Shown here: positions 7,592-34,629 of the stretch, in pieces
How positions within the stretch are numbered: position 1 is the first letter of the stretch
Layout: every line of letters starts with the position of its first letter
Source of the DNA: Sinorhizobium glycinis
Lineage (GTDB): Bacteria > Pseudomonadota > Alphaproteobacteria > Rhizobiales > Rhizobiaceae
Direction of reading: 5' to 3'
DNA: 64,000 nt
Assembly (NCBI RefSeq): GCF_001651865.1
Contig: NZ_LPUX01000064.1
Span: 1-64,000, forward strand
Position numbers and translations under genes: made by a program
The notes under the pieces: model-generated
Databases searched by the model: none
What the model saw: only the letters and a program-made list of their open reading frames with translations
What the model was told of the DNA's origin: nothing

Positions 7592-8347
7592 TCAGGCAAC
7601 CGCCTGGGCGCCCGTTATCTCGACGAGCGAGCCGCACATGAACGCGGATTCGTCGGAAGCGAGAAACGCTACGAGGGCGGCGACCTCCTCCGGCTTTCCG
7701 ATCCGGCCGAATGGAACGAGCTTGTCGAGATCCGCAATCGTGCGTCCCGAACGCTTCACTCCCGCCTCGAGCATCGGCGTATGGATTTCGCCGGGGCAGA
7801 CGGCGTTCACCCGGATCTTGTGCGGGGCGTAGTCGCGGGCGAGGTTCTGCGTGAAGGCAGCGACCGCAGCCTTGGAGGTGTTGTAGGCGACGTGATTCGG
7901 CGCCGGATGGAGCCCCCATTGCGAGGCGGTGTTGACGATGACGCCGCCGCCCGCCTCGATCATGTGGGGGATCGCGGCGCGGCAAAGATAGAACATTGAA
8001 TCGAGGTTCACCGCGAAGCTCGCGTGCCAGTCGTCATCCGTCAGCGACAGGAGGTTGCCGCGACGGTTGATACCGGCATTGTTGACCAGAATGTCGATGC
8101 GCTTCTTCTGCGCTAATGCTTCGGCAATCAGAGCGAAGGATGGTTGTCGCTGAGAAATGTCGGCGGCGATGGCAATGGCAGAACCTCCGGCAGCGACGAT
8201 CTCGGCAGCGACGGCCGCTGCCGCTTCGCCGTTCACGTCGGAGACGACGACCAGCGCTCCTTCATCCGCCAGCCGCCACGATATCGCGGAACCGATGCCG
8301 CCACCTCCGCCGGTGACGACCGCAACCTGGCCTTCGAATCTTTCCAT
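7592..8347 (-). CDS. Short-chain dehydrogenase/reductase (hydroxyproline-type operon)
   Basis: The 251-residue classical SDR has the cofactor motif TGGGGGIG (12-19), NNAG near 89, the catalytic Ser (NTASQWG), Tyr-x3-Lys (YNTSK) near 155-159 and the downstream PGEI segment. Asp in SDVNG at the end of beta-2 suggests NAD(H) rather than NADP(H). It is the last gene of the long minus-strand operon that starts with the amino acid ABC importer, 15 bases after a second SDR. The substrate is not evident; a hydroxy or keto intermediate of proline-derivative breakdown is a reasonable inference. Confidence 0.85.
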   Translation of the reverse strand: MERFEGQVAVVTGGGGGIGSAISWRLADEGALVVVSDVNGEAAAAVAAEIVAAGGSAIAIAADISQRQPSFALIAEALAQKKRIDILVNNAGINRRGNLLSLTDDDWHASFAVNLDSMFYLCRAAIPHMIEAGGGVIVNTASQWGLHPAPNHVAYNTSKAAVAAFTQNLARDYAPHKIRVNAVCPGEIHTPMLEAGVKRSGRTIADLDKLVPFGRIGKPEEVAALVAFLASDESAFMCGSLVEITGAQAVA

Positions 8348-8362: not shown

Positions 8363-9124
8363 CTATCGAATGTAACTGCCGCCGTTGACGTCGAGCGTCG
8401 CGCCGTTCAGCGAGCACTGCGAAGGGCGCAGCGCGAAGGCGACGAGTTCGGCAATTTCGGAGGCCTCGGCCATCTCGCCGATCGGTATGTCGGCGACTGC
8501 GGCCTGCTTACCGAATTTCGCGATGAAGTCCTCGGCCATCTCCGTCCGGACCCAGCCGGGTGCGACCGCCAGCGCCACGACGCCGGCGCCACCGAAGCTG
8601 CGGGCGATCGATTTCGTGAGATTGACGAGCGCCGCCTTCGTCGCGCCATAGGGCATGGCATCGGCCGCATAGCCTCGCTGCCCCGCGCGGCTTGCCATGT
8701 TGACGATCCGCCCGCCGCCATGCGCCTTGAAATGGGTAAGCGCCTGCTTGCAGAGATCGGCGGCGGCGAAGAAGTTCACCTGAAACTCCTTCTGCCAGGC
8801 CTTACGCCAGGCTTCGGGGCCGACGTCGATCGTAATCTCGGTGCGGATACCGGCATTGTTGACGAGCGCATGGATGCGCCCGGCCGCTTCTTCTGCCCGG
8901 CGCCAGAGTTCGAATGCCCCCTCGGCCGCCGAAAGGTCGGCTTGCACTAGAAACCCCTCCCCGGAAATGCGGGCAAGCAGCGCTTCCGCTCCCGCTCTGT
9001 CGCGGCCGTAGTGTATGATCGGACAAGCGCCCTCTTCCGCCAGGCGCTCGACGATCGCGGCGCCGATGCCGCCGGAGGCGCCGGTGACGAGAACGGTCTG
9101 GCCCGACAGGGACTTGATGGACAT
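8363..9124 (-). CDS. Short-chain dehydrogenase/reductase
   Basis: The 253-residue SDR has TGASGGIG (14-21), NNAG near 91, Ser in NMASRAG and Tyr-x3-Lys in YGATK. YGRDR after beta-2 gives an Arg that favours NADP(H), unlike the neighbouring SDR. ATG 9124 is preceded by GGAGGG, a strong ribosome-binding site, which rules out a longer upstream frame. It ends 15 bases before the next SDR gene and starts 10 bases after the proline racemase-like gene, so co-transcription is clear. Its role in the pathway is unknown. The pair may act on successive or alternative substrates. Confidence 0.85.
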   Translation of the reverse strand: MSIKSLSGQTVLVTGASGGIGAAIVERLAEEGACPIIHYGRDRAGAEALLARISGEGFLVQADLSAAEGAFELWRRAEEAAGRIHALVNNAGIRTEITIDVGPEAWRKAWQKEFQVNFFAAADLCKQALTHFKAHGGGRIVNMASRAGQRGYAADAMPYGATKAALVNLTKSIARSFGGAGVVALAVAPGWVRTEMAEDFIAKFGKQAAVADIPIGEMAEASEIAELVAFALRPSQCSLNGATLDVNGGSYIR

Positions 9125-9134
9125 GCTTCCCTCC

Positions 9135-10172
9135 TCAACCGAGCTGATCGACCTGCGGGCCCCAACTGTCGGAAAGTGCAAAGCCGCTTCTGAACGGATC
9201 CTCGTCGGAAACGCGCAGCCGTTCGCGACCGTAGATCCAGCCGCGTCCGGTGATCCGCGGCAGCACTGCGGGACGTCCGCCGACCGCGGTGACACCGATC
9301 GCCTCCGCCGTGAACTCGCCGCCGATGATCGAGCGCGACGTCCGCCGGTCGCCGACGGCAATCTCGCCGCGCGCGTAAAGTGTCGCGAGATTTGCCGAAC
9401 TGCCGGTCCCGCAGGGGGAGCGATCGACCCGGCCGGGCTTCAGCGTCGTGCAGGTGCGCACCGCGCCGTCCGGCTCGCGCCCGCGGAACATCACATAGGC
9501 GATCTCGTCGACACCGCTCAGTTCCGGGTGTTTCACCGTCACCTGCTCGGAGATCAGCGATTTCAGCTCGATCCCCGCCTCGGCCAGATAGCGCGCATTG
9601 GCCGGCACAATTTCGCTGCCGACCTGATCGACATCGACGATCGCGTAGTAGACGCCGCCGAAGGCGATATCGACCCTGATGCGGCCCCAGCGTGGCGTCT
9701 CGATCTCCCGGTCCAGCGCCTCCGCGAAACTCGCCACGTTGTCGAGGCTGACTGACAAACAGCGGCCGTCCCGGCAGGTGGCGCGGGCGACGATCAGCCC
9801 GGCGGGCGTGTCGAGGCGCACGACCGTTTCCGGCTCCTGCATCGCGACCGTGCCGCTTTCCAGAAGGGCGGTGACGACGCAGATGCAATTGCTGCCGGAC
9901 ATCAGATGGGCGCGGTCGGCCTGCAGCACGATGAAGCCGGCATCGGCATCGGGCCGCGTCGGCGCGACAAGTAGGTTGACCGACATGGCGACGCTGGCGC
10001 GCGGCTCGAAGGTGACGAAGCGGCGGAGGCTGTCGTCGATCTGGTTGATGTAGTTCATCTTGTCCAGCATGGTGGCGCCGGGGATTTCCGGCGCGCCGCC
10101 GACGATCACCTTGCCGATCTCGCCCTGGCAATGGACCTCGAGGAGATCAAGCGAACGGTCCCAGTTCATCAT
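9135..10172 (-). CDS. Proline racemase-superfamily enzyme, Ser/Cys type (hydroxyproline epimerase or 3-hydroxyproline dehydratase)
   Basis: The 345-residue protein matches the proline racemase fold. The first catalytic position carries Ser (LMSGSNC, S92) instead of the Cys of the usual MCGHG motif; the second keeps Cys (DRSPCGTG, C254). Family members interconvert proline or 4-hydroxyproline isomers, or dehydrate trans-3-hydroxy-L-proline, and Cys/Cys, Ser/Cys and Cys/Thr types are known. Sequence alone does not decide which. The start ATG 10172 overlaps the stop of the aldehyde dehydrogenase gene (ATGA), which implies translational coupling. A second Ser/Cys paralogue lies at 12950-13984 in the same operon, so the two probably have different substrates. 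Confidence 0.85.
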   Translation of the reverse strand: MMNWDRSLDLLEVHCQGEIGKVIVGGAPEIPGATMLDKMNYINQIDDSLRRFVTFEPRASVAMSVNLLVAPTRPDADAGFIVLQADRAHLMSGSNCICVVTALLESGTVAMQEPETVVRLDTPAGLIVARATCRDGRCLSVSLDNVASFAEALDREIETPRWGRIRVDIAFGGVYYAIVDVDQVGSEIVPANARYLAEAGIELKSLISEQVTVKHPELSGVDEIAYVMFRGREPDGAVRTCTTLKPGRVDRSPCGTGSSANLATLYARGEIAVGDRRTSRSIIGGEFTAEAIGVTAVGGRPAVLPRITGRGWIYGRERLRVSDEDPFRSGFALSDSWGPQVDQLG

Positions 10173-11644
10173 TTGATGTACCAGCCCCATTTCTCGCCGG
10201 CAGCAAAGCGGGTGATCTGCTTTGTCTCGAGATAGTTTTCGAGACCCCACCGGCCGAGCTCGCGGCCGATGCCGGACTCCTTGTAGCCGCCCCAGGGCGC
10301 TTCGGTGAAAGTGGGCTGCGAGCAGTTGATCCAGACAATGCCGGCGCGGAAGGCGCTCGCGACCCGCTCGGCTCGGACATCATCCTTCGACATCACCGCC
10401 GCGGCGAGGCCAAAGCGAGAGTCATTGGCAAGCTCGATTGCTTCCTCTTCGGTCGAGAACGGCTTGATGCAGACGACCGGACCAAAGATCTCCTCGCGCC
10501 AGGCGTCGCTCTCCAGCGGTACGTCGGTGAGCACCGTCGGTTCGAGATAGTAACCTTTCTCGAAACCTTCCGGCCGCTTGCCACCGCAGGCAACCGTTGC
10601 GCCGGCGGCTTTCGCCGCCTTGATCGCCGCGACGACCTGCTCGTGCTGGCGCTTGGAGACCAGCGGTCCGAGAAGCACGCCGGCTTCGAGACCGTCGCCG
10701 ATCCTGATCTTCTGGGTCTCCTCGACGAGCCGCGCAAGGAGCTGATCGTAGATCCCATCCTGGACGAGCACGCGCGACGTCGCCGAGCAGACCTGGCCCT
10801 GATTCCAGAAGATGCCGAACATGATCCATTCGACCGCTTCTTCTATGTCCGCATCGTCGAATACGACGAAGGGAGATTTGCCGCCGAGTTCGAGGCTGAC
10901 GCGCTTGATGTCGCGCGCCGCGGCCGCCATGATTTTCGAGCCGACCGGACCGGAGCCGGTGAAGGCGAGCTTGTCGACTTGCCTGTGGTCGATGATCGCC
11001 TGCCCGGCGATCGAACCGGAGCCGGTGACGATGTTGAGGACGCCGGGCGGCAGGCCGATTTCATCGGCGATCGCCGCGAGTTCGAGTGCTGTCAGCGAGG
11101 TGACTTCGGCCGGCTTCAGCACGACCGTGCAGCCGGCGGCAAGCGCCGGCGCCACCTTCCATGCCGCCATCAGCAGCGGGTAGTTCCAGGGGATGATCGC
11201 ACCGGCGACGCCGATCGGCTCCTTGACCGCCTTGGAGGTGAAGCGGGCATCGGCAAGCGCGATCGGCTCCTCCGGGTTGTTGTCGAGCTGTTCGGCGAGC
11301 CCCGCATAGAAGTCGAAGCAGCCTGCGGCATCGGCGACATCCCAGTCGGCTTCCGGAAACGGCTTGCCGTTGTCGATCGACTCGAGGCGGGCGATTTCCG
11401 CCTGCCGGGCTCGGATGCCCTCGGCGATGGCGCGCAAATACTTTGCCCTCTGCGCCCCCGAGAGTTTCGGCCAGCCGTCCTTGTCGAAGGCGCGACGCGC
11501 GGCCTTCACCGCAGTATCGACATCTTCTGCCGTCGCCGCGGCAATTCTGTGGATCACTTCTTCCGTCGCCGGATTGACGACGTCGAATGTCCTACCGTTC
11601 GCGGCCGCCGTCCATTTTCCATCGATATAGAGTTCGCTGCGCAT
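10169..11644 (-). CDS. NAD(P)-dependent aldehyde dehydrogenase, likely 2-oxoglutarate semialdehyde dehydrogenase
   Basis: The 491-residue protein is a full-length ALDH-superfamily enzyme. It has the Asn of IPWNYP (N154), the general base Glu in LELGGKS (E252), the nucleophile Cys in NQGQVCSAT (C286) and EIFGPV in the C-terminal third. In hydroxyproline catabolism the last step oxidises 2-oxoglutarate semialdehyde to 2-oxoglutarate, and that is the likely job here from context. The sequence also resembles betaine-aldehyde-type enzymes, so the substrate is inferred. ATG 11644 is preferred to ATG 11656 because GGAGCG sits upstream. The stop overlaps the next gene's start. Confidence 0.88.
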   Translation of the reverse strand: MRSELYIDGKWTAAANGRTFDVVNPATEEVIHRIAAATAEDVDTAVKAARRAFDKDGWPKLSGAQRAKYLRAIAEGIRARQAEIARLESIDNGKPFPEADWDVADAAGCFDFYAGLAEQLDNNPEEPIALADARFTSKAVKEPIGVAGAIIPWNYPLLMAAWKVAPALAAGCTVVLKPAEVTSLTALELAAIADEIGLPPGVLNIVTGSGSIAGQAIIDHRQVDKLAFTGSGPVGSKIMAAAARDIKRVSLELGGKSPFVVFDDADIEEAVEWIMFGIFWNQGQVCSATSRVLVQDGIYDQLLARLVEETQKIRIGDGLEAGVLLGPLVSKRQHEQVVAAIKAAKAAGATVACGGKRPEGFEKGYYLEPTVLTDVPLESDAWREEIFGPVVCIKPFSTEEEAIELANDSRFGLAAAVMSKDDVRAERVASAFRAGIVWINCSQPTFTEAPWGGYKESGIGRELGRWGLENYLETKQITRFAAGEKWGWYIK

Positions 11645-11674
11645 TGTTCGCTCCATTGTTTCCCACGCCGGCCG

Positions 11675-12922
11675 TCAGAACCGGTCGACACGGTATGGCT
11701 TGAGATCGATCGGCGGCTGGACGCCGATGACGAGGTCGGCGATGAGCCTCCCGGTCGTGGCCGCGTAGGTAAGGCCAAGATGGCCGTGTCCGGTGGCGTA
11801 GAACACGCCGCGGTGTTTCGCCGAAGGGCCGATGATCGGTACAGTGTCGGGAAGCGCCGGCCGGTGGCCCATCCACTCGGTCGTCTTCTCGGCGCGCAGC
11901 TCCGGCAGCGCCTCCCGCGCCCGCTTGACGAGCACTTTCGCCCGTCGGTAATCCGGCGCGGCGTCGAGCCCGGCCATCTCCACCGTGCCGCCCACACGGA
12001 TGCCGCCGGCCGTCGGCGTCACCATGAAGGCGCGCGCCGGCCAAATGATCGAGTGGCTCATCGAGATGCCCGGCGCCATGATGTGCGTGTGGTAGCCGCG
12101 CTCTGTTTCGAGCGGGATCGGCTCGTCGAGAAGCCGCGCCAGCTTGCCGGTGTAGGCGCCGGCTGCAAGCACGATCTCCGATGCCTCAAGCGCACGCCCA
12201 TCCTTGAGTTGCACCGACTGGACACGGTCGCCATGAATGAAACCGGCCACCTCGCCCTGCTCGATCCTGCCGCCGAGCACCAGGAACTTGTCGCGCAGCT
12301 TCAGGAGGAGTTTGTAGGGATCGCGGATCGAGCGGTTGTCGGGAAACAGCACCGCCTTTGCAATCTTCGACGTCAGCGCGGGTTCGAGGTGGCGGATGGC
12401 GTTGCTGCCGAGGATCTCGTGGCGGAAGCCGAAGCGCTCGAGGATGGCGATGTGCTCGCGGTCTGCCCTGAACTCGGCCTCGTCGGCGTAGAGGCTGAGG
12501 CATCCCTCCTCGGTCAGCATGTCCGTCAGTTCCGCCGCCTGCAGCAGAGGCATCAGATCGTCGTAGACACGACGGCACAGCACCGCGCCTGCCGCCTCCA
12601 GTTCCTTCAGTCGCGACGGGCGGCTCGCTTCCAGGAACCGAAGAAACCACGGCGTGAGCTTCGGCATGTAGGAGGGGCGGATCCGCACCGGTCCCTCCGG
12701 ATCGATCAGCCATTTCGGCATCTGCGCCCAGACGGATGGCCGCGAGGCCGGCATGAATTCGGTGACGGCGATCGATGCCATATTGCCGTAGGAGGCGCCC
12801 TTGCCCTCCGGGTCCCGCTCGATGAGCACGGCGGCTTTCCCGCGGCGCTGCAGCTCATAGGCGATGGTAGTGCCTATAATGCCGGCGCCGACGACAACGA
12901 CAGGACCCTCGTCAATGCTCAT
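11675..12922 (-). CDS. FAD-dependent D-amino acid dehydrogenase (DadA family), likely D-hydroxyproline dehydrogenase
   Basis: The 415-residue protein starts with an FAD-binding GAGIIGTT motif followed by an acidic residue (LIERD) and ends with a DadA-like segment (GHGHLGLTYA) that closes the flavin site. In the hydroxyproline pathway a membrane-associated FAD enzyme oxidises cis-4-hydroxy-D-proline to pyrroline-4-hydroxy-2-carboxylate and passes electrons to the respiratory chain; this is the fitting role by context. I prefer ATG 12922 (GAGAAAAG upstream). An in-frame ATG at 12949 directly follows the preceding stop. It is not a deaminating oxidase of the eukaryotic type by sequence. Confidence 0.87.
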   Translation of the reverse strand: MSIDEGPVVVVGAGIIGTTIAYELQRRGKAAVLIERDPEGKGASYGNMASIAVTEFMPASRPSVWAQMPKWLIDPEGPVRIRPSYMPKLTPWFLRFLEASRPSRLKELEAAGAVLCRRVYDDLMPLLQAAELTDMLTEEGCLSLYADEAEFRADREHIAILERFGFRHEILGSNAIRHLEPALTSKIAKAVLFPDNRSIRDPYKLLLKLRDKFLVLGGRIEQGEVAGFIHGDRVQSVQLKDGRALEASEIVLAAGAYTGKLARLLDEPIPLETERGYHTHIMAPGISMSHSIIWPARAFMVTPTAGGIRVGGTVEMAGLDAAPDYRRAKVLVKRAREALPELRAEKTTEWMGHRPALPDTVPIIGPSAKHRGVFYATGHGHLGLTYAATTGRLIADLVIGVQPPIDLKPYRVDRF

Positions 12923-12949
12923 TTTTCTTTTCTCGAAGTGGCGCTGCAT

Positions 12950-13984
12950 TCAAACCGTGGTCATCCAGGTGTCGGCCACCGTGAAGCCCTCGGGATAGGG
13001 ATCGGTCGGGTCCATGCCCATCTGGTAGAGACCGGTGATCCAGGCCTGGCCGGCGATGGCCGGCACCACGGCATCATAGCGACCCACTTTGACACGACCG
13101 TCGATGGTGCAGGCGAACTTGCTGCCCGTGATGGATTCATGGATCAGCGTCTCGCCTTCCTTCATCAGGCCTTTCGCATGGAGAAGCGCCAGTCTCGCCG
13201 ACGAGCCTGTTCCGCAGGGTGACCGATCGCACCGCCCCGGCGAGACGACGACGCAGTTCTTCGCGACCAGTTGGCCGTTCTCATGGCGCAGAGGGCCCAT
13301 GAATTCGGTGTTGGTGATACCGGGGATCGCGGGATTTTCAGGATGTTCGACGGCAAGCTGTTCGGCGGCCGCGAACTTCAGCTTCTGGCCGACTTCGCAC
13401 AGGTCGCGCGCCTCGGAGGGATCGATGGAGAAGCCGAGATCGGCCGCGTCGACCATCGTGTAGGTCATGCCGCCATAGACGATGTCCACGCGGACCGTGC
13501 CCAGGCCCGCGACTTCGATGTTGCTGTCGATATGGTAGCAGAACGCCGGCTGGTTCACGAGCCGGACGCTGGTCACCTTTCCGTCCTTGCACTCGCAGCG
13601 GACGCGGATCAATCCGGCGGGGGACTCCAGCGTGAGATTGGTGACGGGTTCCTGCATCGGCAGGATCCCGGTCTCGAGAAGGACCGTCGCCACGCACATC
13701 GTGTTCGAGCCCGACATCGCCGGATATTCGGTCGTCTCGAGGATGACATATCCCATGTCCGCTTCGGGATGGTTAGACGGCAGCACGATGTTGGCGTTGT
13801 GCCACACCGCGCCCCGTGACTCGAACAGCACCATCTTGCGGATGTCGTCCATGTGGGCTTCGAGATGGAGCTTCTTGTCGAACATCGTCTGGCCCGCCAC
13901 CTGGCCGACACCTCCGACGATCACCTTGCCGCTTTCGCCCTCGGCATGGCAGTCGACAACGGACAGGACTTTCTTGAAGCGCAT
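12950..13984 (-). CDS. Proline racemase-superfamily enzyme, Ser/Cys type, second paralogue
   Basis: The 344-residue protein is a paralogue of the protein at 9135-10172. It has Ser at the first catalytic position (AMSGSNT, S91) and Cys at the second (CDRSPCGTG, C257). Since the DadA-like dehydrogenase uses D-configured substrates, one of the two paralogues is probably the 4-hydroxyproline 2-epimerase that makes cis-4-hydroxy-D-proline; this gene sits directly before the dehydrogenase gene and is the better candidate. The alternative is 3-hydroxyproline dehydratase. The start ATG has GGAGAT upstream. A 10-bp-stem hairpin lies between it and the preceding DapA-like gene. Confidence 0.85.
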   Translation of the reverse strand: MRFKKVLSVVDCHAEGESGKVIVGGVGQVAGQTMFDKKLHLEAHMDDIRKMVLFESRGAVWHNANIVLPSNHPEADMGYVILETTEYPAMSGSNTMCVATVLLETGILPMQEPVTNLTLESPAGLIRVRCECKDGKVTSVRLVNQPAFCYHIDSNIEVAGLGTVRVDIVYGGMTYTMVDAADLGFSIDPSEARDLCEVGQKLKFAAAEQLAVEHPENPAIPGITNTEFMGPLRHENGQLVAKNCVVVSPGRCDRSPCGTGSSARLALLHAKGLMKEGETLIHESITGSKFACTIDGRVKVGRYDAVVPAIAGQAWITGLYQMGMDPTDPYPEGFTVADTWMTTV

Positions 13985-14045: not shown

Positions 14046-14924
14046 TTACCAGCTAAGGATTGGCTCCATTGCCGCCCTGAACTCGGCCTTCTCCGCGTCG
14101 GTCAGGGGGCCGAGCGGCGCCCGGCACTCACCCATGGGCAGGCCCTGGAGCTCGCAGCCATACTTGATCTTCTGCACGAACTTGCCGCTTTCCAGGATGT
14201 TCATCGCGCGGTAGAGCGTTTTCATCTGCGCACGCGCCTGGTCGAGATCGCCGGCCCTAAACGTCCGGTCGAGATCGCAGCAGGCCTTGGCCATGCAGTT
14301 CGACGGCCCGCAGATCCAGCTCTCGGCACCCCAGAACATGAAGTCGAGTGCGATGTCGTCGGAGCCGGAAACCAGCTGGATGCGGCCTTCGTATCGGCTG
14401 GCGATGTCGATCGCGCGCTGCAACACTCCCGAGCTTTCCTTGATGCCGATGACGCGCCGATTGTCGGCGAAATGGTCCATCAGCTCGAAGCTGATGTCCG
14501 AACCATCCTTGGCCGGATAGGAATAAAGGACCAGGTTCACATCCACCGCATCAAGCACAGTTTCGTAGTGCCGGATCAGTTCGGCCTGTGTCGGCCGGGT
14601 GTAGAACGGCGGAGCGAGCAGCACAGTGTCATAGCCGATCTCCTTGGCGATCGCCGTCTGCTCGATAACCTCGCGGGTGGCGGGCGCATTGGTGCCGGCG
14701 ATCAGGATTTCGCCCGGCTTGGCGAAATCCTTGACGAATTGCAGCACGTCGCGGCGCTCTTCCGTGGACTGGCTGAAATACTCCCCCGTCGAGCCGTTCG
14801 GAACCCAGCCGGTGACACCGGCCTCGCGCAGATGGGCCAGCAGCTTTTCAAAGGCCTTGAAGTCGATCCTGTTGTTCGCGTCGAACGGGGTGACGAGGGC
14901 GGGCATGACGCCAGAGAGTTTCAT
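14046..14924 (-). CDS. DHDPS/NAL-family lyase, likely 1-pyrroline-4-hydroxy-2-carboxylate deaminase
   Basis: The 292-residue TIM-barrel protein has the class I Schiff-base lysine K162 (IGIKESSG), the catalytic tyrosine region LYSYP (Y134) and the GSTGEYF phosphate or carboxylate-binding loop at 44-50, where DapA enzymes have GTTGE. In hydroxyproline catabolism a member of this family converts pyrroline-4-hydroxy-2-carboxylate to 2-oxoglutarate semialdehyde and ammonia, which fits the FAD dehydrogenase and ALDH next to it. ATG 14924 has AAGGAGA upstream. True dihydrodipicolinate synthase is unlikely here because the gene lies within a catabolic operon. Confidence 0.87.
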   Translation of the reverse strand: MKLSGVMPALVTPFDANNRIDFKAFEKLLAHLREAGVTGWVPNGSTGEYFSQSTEERRDVLQFVKDFAKPGEILIAGTNAPATREVIEQTAIAKEIGYDTVLLAPPFYTRPTQAELIRHYETVLDAVDVNLVLYSYPAKDGSDISFELMDHFADNRRVIGIKESSGVLQRAIDIASRYEGRIQLVSGSDDIALDFMFWGAESWICGPSNCMAKACCDLDRTFRAGDLDQARAQMKTLYRAMNILESGKFVQKIKYGCELQGLPMGECRAPLGPLTDAEKAEFRAAMEPILSW

Positions 14925-14952: not shown

Positions 14953-15618
14953 TCAGATTGCCAGCTTGGCGAGCACGCGCCGCTCGACCAGCGTGACGGC
15001 ACGGGTGAGCGGAAAGGCGATGACGAAGTAGATGAGGGCGACCACCGTCAGCACCTCGATAGGGCGCGCCGTATTGTTGGAAATGTTCTGGCCGACGAAC
15101 ATAAGGTCGGCCATGCCGACGGCGGAGACGAGCGCGCTTTCCTTGAACAGGCTGACGCAGTTCGAAAGCAGCGTCGGCACAGCGCGCAGCACCGCCTGCG
15201 GCAGGATGACGTTCGTCACCTGGACGCGGCGCGGCAGACCGAGTGCGACGCAGGCGTCGAGCTGTTCCGGACCGATGGACTTCAGCGAGGCGCGGAAGGT
15301 CTCGCTGGTGATCGCGCCCATATAGAGGGTGAGAGCGATCACGCCCGAGGTGAGATTGGAGAGCTCGACGCCGAGAATTAGCGGCAGGCAGAAGAAGATC
15401 CAGAAGAGCTGGACGAGCACCGGCGTGCCGCGGAAGAACTCGACATAGACGCTGGAGGCAGCGCGCAGGATGGCGCTGCGCGACGTGCGGGCGAGGCCGA
15501 TGAAGAAGCCGAGACTGCAGCCGAGAACGATGCAGACCAGCGTCAGCTTGACGGTCGTCCAGAGGCCGAGAAGCAGCGCGTCCTGGAAGCGAAGGATGAT
15601 GGAAAAGTCGAGGGCCAT
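14953..15618 (-). CDS. Polar amino acid ABC transporter permease (HisM/GlnP type)
   Basis: The 221-residue inner-membrane protein has about five hydrophobic segments and the family features YVEFFRGTPVLVQLFW (near 58-73) and the EAA loop (EQLDACVALGLPRR near 118-131) that contacts the ATPase. ATG 15618 is preceded by GAGGAGA. With the second permease, the ATPase and the binding protein upstream it forms an importer whose substrate by context is hydroxyproline or a related imino acid. The arrangement recalls the hypMNPQ transporter of S. meliloti; orthology is not established here. Confidence 0.9.
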   Translation of the reverse strand: MALDFSIILRFQDALLLGLWTTVKLTLVCIVLGCSLGFFIGLARTSRSAILRAASSVYVEFFRGTPVLVQLFWIFFCLPLILGVELSNLTSGVIALTLYMGAITSETFRASLKSIGPEQLDACVALGLPRRVQVTNVILPQAVLRAVPTLLSNCVSLFKESALVSAVGMADLMFVGQNISNNTARPIEVLTVVALIYFVIAFPLTRAVTLVERRVLAKLAI

Positions 15619-15628
15619 TGTGTTCTCC

Positions 15629-16291
15629 TCAGCTCATCATCAGCTGGCGGCGGCGTTCGAGATGGCCGACGATCTGCGAGACGGGGAACGAGACAGCGAA
15701 GTATACCAGAGCGACGATGGTGAAGGTCTCGATCGGCCTGTAGGTCTCCGTCGCCAGCGTCTTCGCCTGGTACATGAGGTCCTGGACGGCGACGATCGCA
15801 ACCAGCGCAGTCTGCTGGAAGATGCCGATGCCGTTGGTGAGCAGGACCGGTATCGAGGCCCGCACCGCGGTCGGCAGCACGATATGGAGCGTGCGCTGCA
15901 GCGGGTTGAGACCTAGCGCGATCCCGGCATCGAGCTGCTCGCGCGGAACCGCCTGGATCGCGGCGCGATAGGCCTCGGCGTTGAAGGCCATCAGGTTCAG
16001 GCCGAGCGCCAGGATGCCCATCGTCATCGAGCCGAGGAAGACGTTGAACAGCATCGGCACGCAGTAGAAGAACCAGACGATCTGGACGATCGCCGGGGTG
16101 CAGCGGAAGAACTCGACGAAGAGCATGGCGGGCAGCCGGATCGGCGCAAAGCGGCTCATGATGAGAAGCGCCAGCGGAAATCCAAGCACGACGCCGATCA
16201 GATTGGCGGCGACGGTCAGCTCGAGCGTGACGATCAGCCCTTCCCAGAGCGGCCCGAAGGAGACGGACTGGAAGTCGAAGGAATATCCCAT
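15629..16291 (-). CDS. Polar amino acid ABC transporter permease, second subunit
   Basis: The 220-residue inner-membrane protein is a His/Glu/Gln-type permease with FVEFFRCTPAIVQIVWF (near 58-74) and the EAA-type loop EQLDAGIALGLNPLQ (near 118-132). It is a heterodimer partner of the permease encoded 10 bases downstream. It starts 10 bases after the ATPase stop, so all three genes are tightly coupled. The family places both permeases in the same membrane complex with the ATPase on the cytoplasmic side. Confidence 0.9.
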   Translation of the reverse strand: MGYSFDFQSVSFGPLWEGLIVTLELTVAANLIGVVLGFPLALLIMSRFAPIRLPAMLFVEFFRCTPAIVQIVWFFYCVPMLFNVFLGSMTMGILALGLNLMAFNAEAYRAAIQAVPREQLDAGIALGLNPLQRTLHIVLPTAVRASIPVLLTNGIGIFQQTALVAIVAVQDLMYQAKTLATETYRPIETFTIVALVYFAVSFPVSQIVGHLERRRQLMMS

Positions 16292-16300
16292 CTGCCCCTC

Positions 16301-17080
16301 CTAGTGCCGGATATGGAAGACGCGGTCGATGAACTCGCGGGTGCGCTCTTCCTTGGGCGCGCCGAGCACCTGCTCGGGTGGTCCGTCCTCGACGACCACG
16401 CCGCCGGCGCAGAAGATGACGCGGGAGGCGATGTTTTTCGCAAACCACATGTCGTGGGTGACGATCATCATCGGCATGTCCTGGGCGGCAAGCTGCAGGA
16501 TCACCTGTTCGACTTCGGCGACGAGTTCGGGGTCGAGGGCCGAGGTCACCTCGTCGAACAGCATCAGCTTCGGATCGAGCATCAGGGCGCGGGCGATGGC
16601 GACGCGCTGCTTCTGGCCGCCGGAAAGCTGCGCCGGATAGGCATTCGCCTTGGCGCCGAGACCGAAGCGCTCGAGCAGCGCCTGGGCCCGCTTGGTGGCG
16701 CTCGCCTTGGCTTCGCCGCGCACCTTGCAGGGCGCGAGGATCAGGTTCTGGATGACGGACAGATGCGGGAACAGCGTATAGTGCTGGAACACCATGCCGA
16801 TCGAGCGCCGCACCTCGGAATCGATCTCCGTTTTCCTGTCGGCGCCCTCCGACGAGATATAGGGTTTGCCGCCGAAGCTGATAGAGCCGCTGTCGATCTT
16901 CTCAAGGCCCATCATCACCCGCAGCAGCGTGCTCTTGCCGCCGCCGCTCGGGCCGATGACGACGACCCGTTCGCCAGGTTTCATCTCGATATCGAGGCCT
17001 TTGAGAACCTGGATATGCGGGCCGTAGCTCTTGTAGAGGGACTGGATTTTAACAAGGGGAGCACTGAAGGACATGGTCAT
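16301..17080 (-). CDS. Amino acid ABC transporter ATP-binding protein
   Basis: The 259-residue protein is a complete ABC ATPase with Walker A GPSGGGKST (near 43-51), Q-loop FQHYTLFPHL, signature [15 protein letters not shown], Walker [13 protein letters not shown] and the H-loop VTHDM. It powers the adjacent permeases and is closest in layout to GlnQ/HisP. ATG 17080 has GAGGTCGGCG upstream. A hairpin separates it from the binding-protein gene before it. Confidence 0.93.
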   Translation of the reverse strand: MTMSFSAPLVKIQSLYKSYGPHIQVLKGLDIEMKPGERVVVIGPSGGGKSTLLRVMMGLEKIDSGSISFGGKPYISSEGADRKTEIDSEVRRSIGMVFQHYTLFPHLSVIQNLILAPCKVRGEAKASATKRAQALLERFGLGAKANAYPAQLSGGQKQRVAIARALMLDPKLMLFDEVTSALDPELVAEVEQVILQLAAQDMPMMIVTHDMWFAKNIASRVIFCAGGVVVEDGPPEQVLGAPKEERTREFIDRVFHIRH

Positions 17081-17159: not shown

Positions 17160-17993
17160 TCACTGCGCGCTCTTCAGCACCTCATCGACGGCCTTGCGGA
17201 TCAGTTCTTCCACGTGGCCGGTCGCGACCTTTTCCTCGAGGAAGATGTTCACTACCTCGACATCGGCGGCCGACAGTTGATGCGGCAGGCCGAAGGCCAC
17301 GCCCTGTTTCGCCAGCGCCGGCGTCGGGTTGAGCGCGACGGCCCAATCGGGGTTCGACTGGGTGAAGAGCTGGTTCGTGTCAGAAGCATCGACGAGGATG
17401 TCGGCGCGCCGTGATACGATGGCGAGGCGCGTTTCATCGTTGCCCGGCAGCCGCAGGATGGTCGCGTTCTTGACCGCGGCGGTGATCGCCTTGTCCTGGG
17501 CGGAGCCCGACATGACCGCCAGCGTCACGTCCTTCTTGTCGATATCGGCAACCGAGGCCGCGCCGGCCGGGATTTTCGGGTTCTCCTTGTTGTAGGCGAG
17601 CGAGATCTGGTACTGCATGGCGGGAACGGAGAACTGCACGGCCATGGCACGCGCCGGCGTCCTGTTCAGCGCCAGCGAAAGATCCCACTTTCCCGCCTGC
17701 AGGCCGGCGACGATATTGTCCCAGGTGGTGTCGACGAATTCCGGCTTGACCTTCAGTGTCTCGGCGAATTCGCGGCAGAGATCGGCAAAGAAGCCGGAAT
17801 ATTCGCCGCTCGCCGGATCGCGCATCACATAGGGCGGAGCGACAGCCGCGCCGCAACGAAGGACGCCCGCCTTCTGCACGCCCTGCCAGTAACCTTCGGC
17901 GGTCTGGGCGGATGCAGCGGTGGTTGAAAGACCAGTGATCAGGGCAAGCGCAGGCAGCGCCCGCAGGACGGGCGAAAGCATCTTCGAAAGCAT
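17160..17993 (-). CDS. Periplasmic amino acid-binding protein of ABC importer
   Basis: The roughly 277-residue protein has a signal peptide (about 28 residues, ending STTAASAQT) and the family 3 solute-binding fold: GVLRCGAAVAPPYV early, then a GFFADLCREF segment and TTWDNIVAGLQAGKWDLSL. It delivers the substrate to the two permeases. It is the first gene of the hydroxyproline-type operon and lies opposite the GntR regulator across a tandem operator. ATG 17993 is favoured over ATG 17999 because AGAGGAA is well spaced from it. Hydroxyproline as ligand is inferred from the operon. Confidence 0.9.
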   Translation of the reverse strand: MLSKMLSPVLRALPALALITGLSTTAASAQTAEGYWQGVQKAGVLRCGAAVAPPYVMRDPASGEYSGFFADLCREFAETLKVKPEFVDTTWDNIVAGLQAGKWDLSLALNRTPARAMAVQFSVPAMQYQISLAYNKENPKIPAGAASVADIDKKDVTLAVMSGSAQDKAITAAVKNATILRLPGNDETRLAIVSRRADILVDASDTNQLFTQSNPDWAVALNPTPALAKQGVAFGLPHQLSAADVEVVNIFLEEKVATGHVEELIRKAVDEVLKSAQ

Positions 17994-18066
17994 CGTCATT
18001 TCCTCTGTTTGACGGGCGCGCAGCGCGCGCGGTTCCTCTCGTCGGCTTCAGCCGATCTTTGCTTTT

Positions 18067-18115
18067 TGTCGTCTACGTGTCGACAAGGAAATTTATGTCG
18101 TCTACGTGTCGACAA
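18067..18115. promoter_or_regulatory. Tandem operator for the GntR-type regulator
   Basis: The 20-mer TGTCGTCTACGTGTCGACAA occurs twice without a mismatch, at 18067-18086 and 18096-18115, 29 bases apart. Each copy has inverted ends (TTGTCG or TGTCG with CGACAA). The pair lies in the divergent gap between the binding-protein gene and the GntR regulator, so one protein could repress both promoters. GntR/FadR-type proteins commonly bind short palindromes of this kind. Confidence 0.85.
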
Positions 18116-18162
18116 AGTCAAGCGGAAATTTTACATTGTCGGCGCTGCGATTTTCTGGCCCT

Positions 18163-18912
18163 ATGGGTCGAGCATCGAAGAAAGCGAGCCAAGTGTCTGA
18201 CGAAATTGAAGTGAAACGAGCCAGGGGCACTGGCTGGAAAAACGTCTACGAGACGTTGCGCAACGAAATCCTGGCACTGACGCTCGCGCCCGGCCAGCTC
18301 CTGGACGAGAGTACGCTCGCCGAACGTTTCGACATGTCGCGGTCACCTGTTCGCGAGGCCTTGATCAGGCTCGCGGGCGAGGATCTTGTCGTGACGCTTT
18401 CGAATCGCAGCACGATCGTCGCGCCGATCGAGGTGGGGACCTTCCCGAAATATGTCGAAGCGTTGGACATCGCGCAGCGGATGAACACACGGCTCGCCGC
18501 GGAGCTGCGGACCGAGGTGGATCTGAAGGCAATTGCCAAGCGGCAGAAGGAGTTCGAGACGGCCGTGAAAACCGGCGATCACCTCAAGATGTCCGAGGCT
18601 AACAAGCAATTTCACATGGCGATCGCCCATGCCGGGAGGAACCCCTACCTGGCGGCCTTTTACGAGCGCCTGCTCAATCAGGGCCAGCGAATGCTGCACC
18701 TGCATTTCGAATATCTGGAACGCACCCACGAAGGCTATCTGCTGACGGACGAGCACAACCAGATGCTGGAGGCGATCCGGGCGAAGAACGTCGATCTCGC
18801 CGACGAACTGGCGCATGCCCATACGCGGCAGTTCCAGCAGAACTTCATCAACTTCATGCGCGAGAACTACACGACGGACGTCTCGCTCGCGCGGCGCAAG
18901 GCAGCCGAATAA
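18163..18912 (+). CDS. GntR-family regulator (FCD/FadR subgroup) of the hydroxyproline-type operon
   Basis: The 249-residue protein has an N-terminal winged helix-turn-helix (about 20-85: YETLRNEILALTLAPGQLLD, then SRSPVREALIRL) and a C-terminal helical FCD ligand domain (about 100-230) with the Asp/His pattern typical of metal-assisted ligand binding (EANKQFHMAIAHAG and later DEHNQMLEAI). It is divergent from the importer/catabolic operon. I chose ATG 18163; the further upstream ATG at 18106 falls inside the second operator copy. The likely effector is hydroxyproline or a pathway intermediate, with repression relieved on binding. Confidence 0.9.
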   Translation: MGRASKKASQVSDEIEVKRARGTGWKNVYETLRNEILALTLAPGQLLDESTLAERFDMSRSPVREALIRLAGEDLVVTLSNRSTIVAPIEVGTFPKYVEALDIAQRMNTRLAAELRTEVDLKAIAKRQKEFETAVKTGDHLKMSEANKQFHMAIAHAGRNPYLAAFYERLLNQGQRMLHLHFEYLERTHEGYLLTDEHNQMLEAIRAKNVDLADELAHAHTRQFQQNFINFMRENYTTDVSLARRKAAE

Positions 18913-33462: not shown

Positions 33463-33570
33463 TGCGTCCTCAATACCGGATTGACCTATCAAATGCCTCG
33501 CGTCATAACTTGTCAAGCGGCATCGGCGAGATTCGCCGTCCGTGAATTCTCGTGGGAGGAACCGAGCCCT

Positions 33571-34629
33571 ATGAACCTGCCGATCGAAACGCCCGCCGTG
33601 CTCGTCGATCTCGACATTGCCCGCCGCAACGTCCGTGCCTTCCAGGCCTATGCCGATCGCCACGGCATCCGCGTGCGTCCGCACATCAAGACGCACAAGC
33701 TGCCGCAGATGGCCGAATTGCAGCTCGAGACAGGGGCGATCGGCATAACCTGCCAGAAGGTGTCCGAGGCGGAGGCCATGGTTGACGGCAGCGCGCGGAT
33801 CAAGGACGTGCTGATCACCTACAACATCCTCGGCGAAGCAAAGCTCGCGCGCCTGGCGCGGCTGAATGAGCGGGTCACCCTCAGCGTCGTGGCGGACAAC
33901 GCGGCTGTCATCGACGGATTAGCGGAATATTTTTCTGGCGCGCGGAAGCCGCTAGCCGTGCTTGTCGAGTGCAATACGGGCGCCGATCGCTGCGGAGTCG
34001 CGACCCCAGACGAGGCGGCAGCCCTCGCCCGGCGCATTGCCGAGGCACCCGGATTGCGGTTCGGCGGTTTGATGACCTATCCGCCCGTCGGCGGCGCGGC
34101 ACGGGTGCAGTCCTTCATGAGCGAGGCAAGGCGGCTGATCGAGGCGGATGGGTTGCAGGTCCCCATCGTCACATCCGGCGGCACGCCGAGCATGATGCAA
34201 GCGGCCGAGGCGCCGGTTGCGACCGAATACCGCCCGGGCACCTATATCTACAACGATCGCTCCCTCGTCGCCCGCGGCGTCGCGACTTGGGATGACTGCG
34301 CGCTCACCGTGCTTGCGACGGTCGTCTCCGTCCCGGCGCCCCACCGGGCGATCATCGATGCCGGCAGCAAGGTATTGACCTCCGATCTCCTCGGCTTGGC
34401 GGGCTATGGCCATGTGCTCGGCCGCGACGACATCCACATCGACCAGCTTTCCGAAGAACATGGCCGGCTTGTTTCGGACGGGCCTATCGGTTTGAAGGTC
34501 GGCGAACAGCTTCGCGTCGTTCCGAACCACGCCTGCGTGGTGACCAACATGGTCGATGCGATCCATATCATCGAAGCCGGCGAGCCGAAGACCGAGTGGA
34601 GTGTCGTCGCGCGCGGTCGCGTCCTTTAA
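33571..34629 (+). CDS. D-threonine aldolase / D-hydroxyaspartate dehydratase-like PLP enzyme (alanine racemase fold III)
   Basis: The 352-residue protein matches the DSD1/D-threonine aldolase family: PLP-binding lysine K40 in RPHIKTHK near the N-terminus and the C-terminal metal-binding NHAC motif (H320, C322; PNHACVVTN), which binds a divalent ion. Members cleave D-threonine or D-3-hydroxy amino acids to glycine plus an aldehyde, or dehydrate D-serine or D-3-hydroxyaspartate. The divergent amino acid importer, RidA and IclR regulator support catabolism of an imported beta-hydroxy amino acid. ATG 33571 has GGGAGGA upstream; an earlier in-frame ATG lies in the regulatory gap. Confidence 0.85.
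   Translation: MNLPIETPAVLVDLDIARRNVRAFQAYADRHGIRVRPHIKTHKLPQMAELQLETGAIGITCQKVSEAEAMVDGSARIKDVLITYNILGEAKLARLARLNERVTLSVVADNAAVIDGLAEYFSGARKPLAVLVECNTGADRCGVATPDEAAALARRIAEAPGLRFGGLMTYPPVGGAARVQSFMSEARRLIEADGLQVPIVTSGGTPSMMQAAEAPVATEYRPGTYIYNDRSLVARGVATWDDCALTVLATVVSVPAPHRAIIDAGSKVLTSDLLGLAGYGHVLGRDDIHIDQLSEEHGRLVSDGPIGLKVGEQLRVVPNHACVVTNMVDAIHIIEAGEPKTEWSVVARGRVL

Follow-up and report, generated by a model that had tools for sequence, protein, structure and literature searches.

A Sinorhizobium glycinis operon with two different Ser/Cys proline racemase-superfamily proteins and a possible retro-aldol route for 4-hydroxylated cyclic imino acids

Background

Operons that combine a proline racemase-superfamily (PRS) protein, a DAO-family FAD dehydrogenase, a dihydrodipicolinate synthase (DHDPS, DapA) family protein and an aldehyde dehydrogenase (ALDH) are readily assigned by their neighbourhood to the pathway from hydroxyproline to α-ketoglutarate, the pathway of the hyp clusters (HypRE, HypO, HypD and HypH) of S. 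meliloti and P. denitrificans. Here, we analysed an operon of these four superfamilies in a 64,000-nucleotide stretch of Sinorhizobium glycinis DNA (hereafter the window; assembly GCF_001651865.1, contig NZ_LPUX01000064.1, positions 1 to 64,000). The operon contains two PRS genes, PRA (9135..10172, minus strand) and PRB (12950..13984, minus strand).

A cluster of 4-hydroxyproline 2-epimerases (4HypE) with a Ser/Cys catalytic dyad, including the A. vitis structure 4LB0, is described as promiscuous for 3-hydroxyproline epimerisation; the Asn in MSGSN is credited with holding the catalytic Ser in position, and cluster 3, which has a Ser/Thr structure, is described as functionally mixed (eLife 2014, PMC4113996). 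A Phe located 28 residues before the first catalytic residue is given as a mark of proline racemases in a paper that also lists Q9I489 as S/C (PMC1964878). PaLhpL (PA1255) was reported to be both a trans-3-hydroxy-L-proline (T3LHyp) dehydratase and a 2-epimerase (PMC5144071), and the accession order suggests that Q9I489 is PA1255. For the downstream enzymes, aldolases are reported to use a Tyr-Thr/Ser-Tyr triad (PMC9795676; PMC3188589), the deaminase SCO6292 has a DapA-type domain (PMC6608401), and Asp110 and Asp113 are said to recognise protonated amino-aldehydes (PMC11362210). Further background is provided by PMC4364671, PMC5343134 and PMC13398020.

Active sites of the DapA-like protein and the aldehyde dehydrogenase

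With a confidence slightly short of even, we prefer the reading that the operon imports and degrades at least one 4-hydroxylated cyclic imino acid by a retro-aldol route. The less expected point is that two of the four pathway enzymes, the DapA-like protein (14046..14924, minus strand) and the ALDH (10169..11656, minus strand), look suited to other reactions. They are 26-28% identical to canonical HypD and 24-29% identical to HypH, respectively, and on these sequence comparisons they are not orthologues of the two enzymes. Additionally, no match to canonical HypD or HypH above 31% identity was found in the 6.04-Mb genome. The original prediction had counted the other three pathway enzymes as present; this holds for the superfamilies, which occur together with two short-chain dehydrogenases (SDRs), but not for the canonical deaminase and α-ketoglutarate semialdehyde (KGSA) dehydrogenase. 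The active-site residues of these two operon proteins are those of other reactions. The expectation of an operon that probably does something besides the textbook pathway gained support.

In E. coli DapA numbering, S44, T/S45, Y107, Y133 and K161 were found in 26/26 operon-type DHDPS sequences; thus all of them carry the Ser/Thr-Tyr-Tyr triad (S44-Y107-Y133 in the window copy) and the Schiff-base Lys of class I pyruvate aldolases. Meanwhile, the HypD-type protein L042, whose gene was named by synteny, has M45 and L107, and the solved relatives 5czj, 4mpq and 2hmc show IPRVLSRG in this region. The KdgD dehydratases have G44 and L107 in 9/9 sequences (the eight given as loci among nine matches over the curated cutoff, and one just under it), and T44, T45 and Y107 occur in a control protein of the same genome (L045) that shares 45% identity with E. 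coli DapA. Neither the close similarity nor the Leu at position 107 expected of canonical HypD was found in the DapA-like protein, and its score with the DapA model TIGR00674 was 202.3 (cutoff 206.15).

The ALDH is 57% identical overall to the plant enzyme PsAMADH2 (3IWJ) and agrees with it at 12 of the 13 non-catalytic pocket residues named in PMC11362210, a level reached by 1,229 of 200,000 random residue sets. At the same 13 residues, HypH matched 1/13 and ten other ALDHs of the loci 1-6/13. The six residues stressed in the discussion of that paper were all found in the operon ALDH, compared with none in HypH and 0-3 in the ten other ALDHs. All six residues expected of ALDH10 (Asp110, Asp113, Tyr163, Trp170, Trp288 and Trp459) are present; among 25 operon ALDHs, positions 110 and 113 are Asp in 25/25 (Glu/Arg in HypH), Trp170 and Trp459 are invariant, Tyr163 is replaced by Phe in five and Trp288 by Phe in one. 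None of the pocket Arg residues of HypH (106, 113 and 444) occurs in the operon ALDH. These pocket residues suggest that the protein is an amino-aldehyde dehydrogenase.

Proposed route

A retro-aldol cleavage is the simplest reading because the putative amino-aldehyde dehydrogenase adjoins a putative pyruvate aldolase. In the proposed route, PRA and PRB, as two different Ser/Cys enzymes, would convert the L-imino acid to its D form, the role of PRB being less sure. The DAO-family FAD dehydrogenase (11675..12949, minus strand), 38-39% identical to HypO (another protein of the genome, on contig C62, is 40% identical), is a candidate D-imino-acid dehydrogenase and would produce the 4-hydroxy cyclic ketimine, which would open to a 4-hydroxy-2-oxo-ω-amino acid. 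Judging from its active-site residues, the DapA-like enzyme may split this acid into pyruvate and an amino-aldehyde, and the ALDH10-like pocket suggests that the latter would then be oxidised. The predicted end products are pyruvate and glycine from 4-hydroxyproline, or pyruvate and β-alanine from 4-hydroxypipecolate. We speculate that, with both PRS proteins and two SDRs, the operon may handle a broader set of stereoisomers.

Legumes contain the non-protein amino acid 4-hydroxypipecolate and its sulfate. That the operon degrades this legume compound to pyruvate and β-alanine, with a sulfatase freeing the ring alcohol from a sulfate ester, appears unlikely. In such a case, PRA and PRB would make the D form, the DAO-family enzyme would yield 4-hydroxy-piperideine-2-carboxylate, and the DapA-like enzyme would reverse the chemistry of lysine biosynthesis on the decarboxy analogue of the DapA product, giving pyruvate and 3-aminopropanal. 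The ALDH10-like enzyme would convert 3-aminopropanal to β-alanine, and a choline-sulfatase-type sulfatase would release the ring alcohol from its sulfate ester.

If the opened acid is indeed cleaved rather than deaminated, pathway assignments made from the neighbourhood of these four superfamilies would be mistaken for two of the four steps. Moreover, rhizobia would possess a route from hydroxylated imino acids to pyruvate and glycine or β-alanine, which was not found in the literature searched. Searches for hydroxypipecolate catabolism, and for aminoacetaldehyde together with hydroxyproline, gave nothing relevant among the matches listed, and a search joining proline racemase with amino-aldehyde dehydrogenase gave no match. 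The operon is also a natural example in which two distinct Ser/Cys clades of the same superfamily occur together.

PRA and PRB belong to separate Ser/Cys clades

PRA (345 aa) carries MSGSN with Ser92 and DRSPCGTG with Cys254, and PRB (344 aa) carries MSGSN with Ser91 and DRSPCGTG with Cys257, which confirms the motifs originally described in both minus-strand open reading frames (ORFs). A chance match is excluded because both are full-length PF05544 proteins (PRA, 388.8 bits, E 2.5e-116; PRB, 427.6 bits, E 3.8e-128; cutoff 27). Among sequences at least 60% identical to the window copy, with fragments omitted, the Ser/Cys dyad is kept in 20/20 of the PRA clade and 26/26 of the PRB clade. We rejected the dyad itself as a novelty, as it has been known since 2014 from A. 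vitis 4LB0 (PMC4113996). The original prediction had taken Cys at both sites as the rule for rhizobial epimerases; this is true of the hyp clusters of S. meliloti and P. denitrificans, but Ser/Cys 4HypE were already known in Rhizobiaceae, and the view that Ser/Cys is unusual for epimerases of the family found no support in the published cluster.

In a tree of 64 PRS proteins, the PRA clade (20 rows, support 98/95) and the PRB clade (26 rows, 100/96) stand apart; several long branches were flagged by the program, and the two pieces of L030, the PRA of L016, one L025 piece and duplicate copies of the strain's own genes were left out. PRA and the 4LB0 type share a node (100/98) that includes one further row, with PRA as a sister group and not inside the 4LB0 type, and PRB falls outside this node. 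PRB and one Ser/Thr protein (L035) join at 82/85 only, and the Cys-first proteins are distant. A placement of both proteins in a single clade, which was to count against two functions, did not occur. PRA and PRB are 41% identical; with this identity and the separate clades, we rejected a recent duplication.

The closest solved structures are 4Q2H and 4LB0 for PRA and 4K8L, 1TM0 and 4K7G, of the trans-3-hydroxyproline dehydratase (t3HypD) cluster, for PRB. Both proteins have the Ser/Cys dyad and MSGSN Asn of the cluster 9 4HypE. Neither reached the cutoff of 376 of the canonical Cys/Cys 4HypE model NF010578 (PRA, 229.8; PRB, 260.7) or that of 550 of the t3HypD model NF047722 (PRA, 339.3; PRB, 424.4), and the Thr of type II t3HypD at the second catalytic position is replaced by Cys in 26/26 PRB sequences. 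The proline-racemase Phe is absent (Ser/Thr in 20/20 PRA; Asn in 25/26 and Ser in 1/26 PRB), and a proline racemase identity is disfavoured for both. The expectation that at least one of the two is probably an epimerase is supported. PRB, which is Ser/Cys yet nearest to dehydratases, may be a PaLhpL-like dehydratase/epimerase. A model of the PRB structure, built for this protein by itself, was of poor quality (mean pLDDT 34.7) and was set aside. In relatives of the S. meliloti t3HypD (65-67% identical), the dyad is Ser/Cys in L061-L063, which come from the class of genome G001, and Ser/Thr in L060 and L064; the second catalytic residue thus varies within one close group.

PRB rows come from families including Rhizobiaceae, Methylobacteriaceae, Burkholderiaceae, Halomonadaceae, Microbacteriaceae, Streptomycetaceae and Nocardiaceae. 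We know of no tested member of the PRB clade, although our knowledge does not extend to the activity tables of the eLife 2014 paper. Among 385 evenly sampled genomes of the class of S. glycinis, PRB above 60% identity was found only in its own genome, with relatives of 49-58% in eight others; among 369 genomes of the class of G001, a 76% match was found in G001 and relatives of 46-49% in six.

The S. glycinis genome has four PRS proteins: PRA, PRB, a protein on contig C53 and a Cys/Gly protein on C64. The C53 protein is of the Avi_0518 type, 74% identical to 4LB0, and lies near a PutA-like ORF, named from its size and ALDH part only. The C64 protein (C64:606382-607353; L033:8365-9363) scores 560 bits as a 4-hydroxyproline epimerase (cutoff 376), and its motifs are MCGAG/SPGGTG, with Gly in place of the second catalytic Cys and Ala in place of the His of MCGH. 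These residues recur in 5/5 sequences (its own, Sinorhizobium fredii twice, Rhizobium indicum and Mesorhizobium; the others are L080-L083), and its neighbours encode a DHDPS, an ALDH and an ABC ATPase that matches CBS weakly.

Operon layout and conservation in relatives

The operon lies on the minus strand in the order solute-binding protein (SBP), ATPase, two permeases, DapA-like protein, PRB, FAD dehydrogenase, ALDH, PRA, SDR1 and SDR2, with adjacent genes, SBP through SDR2, spaced -4 to 79 bp apart. Family matches identify the SBP as family 3 (SBP_bac_3; 17160..17999) and one ABC permease as the polar amino acid type (14953..15618); position and conservation assign the second permease (15629..16291) and the ATPase (16301..17080) to the same transporter. 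SDR1 (8363..9124) and SDR2 (7592..8347) are the two short-chain dehydrogenases. A divergent GntR/FCD regulator gene (18106..18912, plus strand) adjoins the operon in many relatives. Outside the operon, window positions 33481-34629 encode a protein with alanine-racemase N-terminal and D-serine-dehydratase-type domains.

A search with PRB yielded 27 loci, 14 of which have PRB, the core of DHDPS, DAO and ALDH genes, and a PRA-type gene (in L016 the PRA is a fragment at the edge, in L020 it is only 52% identical, and in L016 and L018 the core is more distant). Four combine PRB with a complete core but lack PRA (L010, L021, L022 and L030, the last with PRB in two pieces), seven have PRB without the core, one has PRA and the core without PRB (L031), and L023 ends within the core, so that the presence of PRA cannot be judged. 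A search that detects Cys/Cys types elsewhere found no PRS other than PRB in the loci L010, L021 and L022. Conversely, PRA was the sole PRS detected beside a complete core in L031 and in five of six plasmid loci with PRA (L036, L037, L038, L040 and L044); none of these five has PRB in the locus, and the sixth (L043) has hydantoinase/oxoprolinase genes in place of the core. The occurrence of PRA or PRB with a complete core in the absence of the other suggests, most simply, that both perform the same type of step.

Within the genus, 33 genomes were compared using PRA matches of at least 68% (27 of 49; 21 of C53 type at 59-61% and one at 46% were left out), PRB matches of at least 74% (13 of 39) and all 26 DHDPS matches. 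The 26 core DHDPS loci occur in 22 genomes, each with PRA, PRB or both no more than 7 kb away (PRA only, 14; PRB only, 5; both, 7). PRB copies lie beside the core in 12/13 cases (the other is a 74% copy) and PRA copies in 21/27; of the remaining six PRA copies, four are separated from a PRB-only core by 19-23 kb. We examined two of the five PRB-only loci, L066 and L068; each has a Cys/Cys gene of the HypE family approximately 5 kb away on the other strand, which weakens the same-step reading for PRB.

Some relatives have unusual arrangements. In L066 (10300-11755), the DAO gene of the PRB-only operon appears as two ORFs that overlap, 71% and 75% identical to the window DAO, and is whole in L068. 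In Ventosimonas gracilis (L018:3107-9035), three PRS genes (MCGHA/SPCGTG, PRA and PRB) form one run with DHDPS, DAO and ALDH genes. The PRB relative of Mesorhizobium sp. SOD10 (L030:8001-9034) lies in two frames, part one being 83% identical to PRB and part two 64%, the latter having SPTGTG (Thr); the halves may differ in history, or the assembly may be faulty. On a Devosia plasmid (L043:4204-9035), a PRA-like gene (50%, Ser/Cys) directly follows the two hydantoinase/oxoprolinase genes, and the Ser/Thr PRB relative L035 occurs with oxoprolinase-subunit genes and an Ldh reductase.

Neighbouring genes and the choice of ring

The neighbour evidence on the ring conflicts: L016, L017 and L067/L069 speak for a pipecolate-type substrate, whereas L066/L068 speak for a hydroxyproline-type one. 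In L016, an AptA ω-aminotransferase (723 bits, cutoff 500) and MMSDH (574, cutoff 448.5) are encoded approximately 4 kb from PRB, indicating β-alanine breakdown and pointing to a pipecolate-type substrate. In L017 (Paraburkholderia), an AmaB-like piperideine-6-carboxylate dehydrogenase gene (607 bits, cutoff 730; the ORF begins at the locus edge), a DAO gene and electron transfer flavoprotein (ETF) genes are followed by PRB and PRA, but this link is loose because of a gap of approximately 690 bp and a nearby IS6 transposase gene. Two relatives of the same genus have a sulfatase gene with a PRA paralogue approximately 20 kb from a PRB-only operon. The gene for the choline-sulfatase-type protein of L069 (7528-9087; 603 bits, cutoff 433, CAPSR) is flanked by those for an ABC ATPase and a 75% PRA, and its L067 counterpart (10870-12435), whose product is 96% identical, lies directly upstream of a 76% PRA paralogue.

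In L066, HypE-type (NF010578, 460, cutoff 376) and AcnX-type (NF051439, 765, cutoff 700) genes lie near the PRB-only core, with an Ldh_2-like reductase downstream and a class III aminotransferase. L068 likewise has HypE- and AcnX-type genes, the model scores being from L066 only, and the Ldh_2-like reductase. Hydroxyproline is perhaps the likelier substrate for the L066/L068 type.

Weighing the alternatives

Several observations weigh against the retro-aldol reading. The ALDH result depends on the choice of residues: a first set of 12 of 17 positions, with three catalytic and two differing ones (447 and 453) left out, gave 12/12, and with both differing positions included it becomes 12/14, which is equalled by 4,384 of 200,000 random sets. 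Moreover, the 25 operon ALDHs share descent, and their agreement is not independent. As for the DapA-like protein, Y107 also occurs in DHDPS outside the operon type (actinobacterial L019, L026, L028 and L029, and L033 of the same genome), and the HypD residues were judged from one synteny-named gene and three solved relatives. Tyr107 in the deaminases LhpC (P. aeruginosa) or SCO6292 (S. coelicolor) would weaken the comparison at this residue; Pseudomonas LhpC was not found in loci L051-L069, and the PA1255 primers matched none of the loci collected. K/R138, which in DapA presumably holds the carboxylate of the aldehyde, is kept in 26/26 operon DHDPS, and this is unexplained with aminoacetaldehyde or 3-aminopropanal as the proposed aldehydes. 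The two SDRs have no assigned step. In L066 and L068, PRB need not be the epimerase given the Cys/Cys epimerase gene, and the cis-3-hydroxyproline dehydratase-type gene and Ldh_2-like reductase fit 3-hydroxyproline chemistry, which DapA-type cleavage could not serve. The fairer ALDH test and the HypE genes slightly lowered our confidence in this reading and in the 4-hydroxypipecolate one, and slightly raised that in the alternatives below.

The canonical logic might instead be carried out by divergent enzymes, with PRA and PRB as partly redundant 4-hydroxyproline epimerases, the DapA-like protein as the deaminase yielding KGSA and the ALDH as KGSA dehydrogenase. The four superfamilies are those of the known pathway, PRA is sister to the 4LB0-type 4HypE, and the Ser/Cys (orange) cluster was assigned as 4HypE from DAAO/DHDPS/ALDH neighbourhoods and assays (PMC4113996). 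Furthermore, the genome has no close HypD or HypH elsewhere, and HypE- and AcnX-type genes accompany the PRB-only core in L066 and L068. However, the low identities to HypD and HypH, the kept aldolase triad, the largely kept amino-aldehyde pocket and the missing HypH Arg residues all argue against this explanation, as does the Avi_0518-type epimerase already encoded on C53, and we consider it possible but rather doubtful. It is somewhat more plausible, although still short of probable, that only PRA is the core epimerase and PRB a t3HypD or a PaLhpL-like dehydratase/epimerase, in which case the operon would supply two pathways; this alternative bears on PRB alone and fits either route for the core. 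The possibility of a 3-hydroxyproline dehydratase had been raised in the original prediction, and it is favoured by the t3HypD-cluster relatives of PRB, its best NCBIfam model (T3LHypDht, 424 bits), the activities and S/C dyad reported for PaLhpL and Q9I489 (PMC5144071; PMC1964878), and the proximal PRS pairs of several species, which are 4HypE plus t3HypD (PMC4113996). Ketimine-reductase families also occur near PRB in L016 (Ldh_2) and L023 (OCD), where PRB is a separate unit, and in L066 and L068. On the other hand, 424 is below the T3LHypDht cutoff, the second catalytic residue is always Cys, no Ldh_2 or OCD match was found in the window operon among the families scanned, an Ldh-type query found nothing in the genome (a search without a positive control), and in L010, L021 and L022 no PRS besides PRB was found alongside a complete core. 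Finally, PRA or PRB could be a racemase of proline or pipecolate with no link to hydroxy imino acids, as the gene order of L017 might suggest; with the marker Phe replaced throughout, the L017 link loose and the DapA-like enzyme left without a job on unhydroxylated rings, this is highly improbable.

Comparison with known systems

The hyp clusters of S. meliloti and P. denitrificans share PRS, DAO, DHDPS and ALDH proteins and a polar amino acid ABC transporter with the operon, but their epimerase is Cys/Cys, and their DHDPS and ALDH are non-orthologous, with other active-site residues. PRA resembles the Ser/Cys 4HypE of cluster 9 (Avi_0518, 4LB0 and, by similarity, 4Q2H) in its dyad, MSGSN Asn, 56% identity and sister position, but it forms its own clade, and 12 positions conserved in at least 95% of 20 PRA sequences differ from three 4LB0-type sequences. 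PRB resembles the type II t3HypD of cluster 3 (A. vitis Avi_7022, 4K7G, Ser/Thr) in its 45% identity, first Ser and Asn motif, and differs in having Cys instead of Thr, in its own clade and in its score under the NCBIfam cutoff. It shares the Ser/Cys dyad with PaLhpL, whose PCR primers, as printed in the eLife paper, encode cluster-3-like stretches by our reading (PMC4113996). The operon ALDH is like plant ALDH10 in its pocket residues and unlike it in being bacterial, in belonging to a catabolic operon and in having Thr at 453 in 25/25 sequences. Human HOGA1, the 4-hydroxy-2-oxoglutarate aldolase, is a DHDPS-family enzyme that acts in the cleavage direction in hydroxyproline breakdown (PMC3188589); its similarity to the DapA-like protein is modest (111 bits), and unlike the HOGA1 substrate, the one proposed here would retain its amino group.

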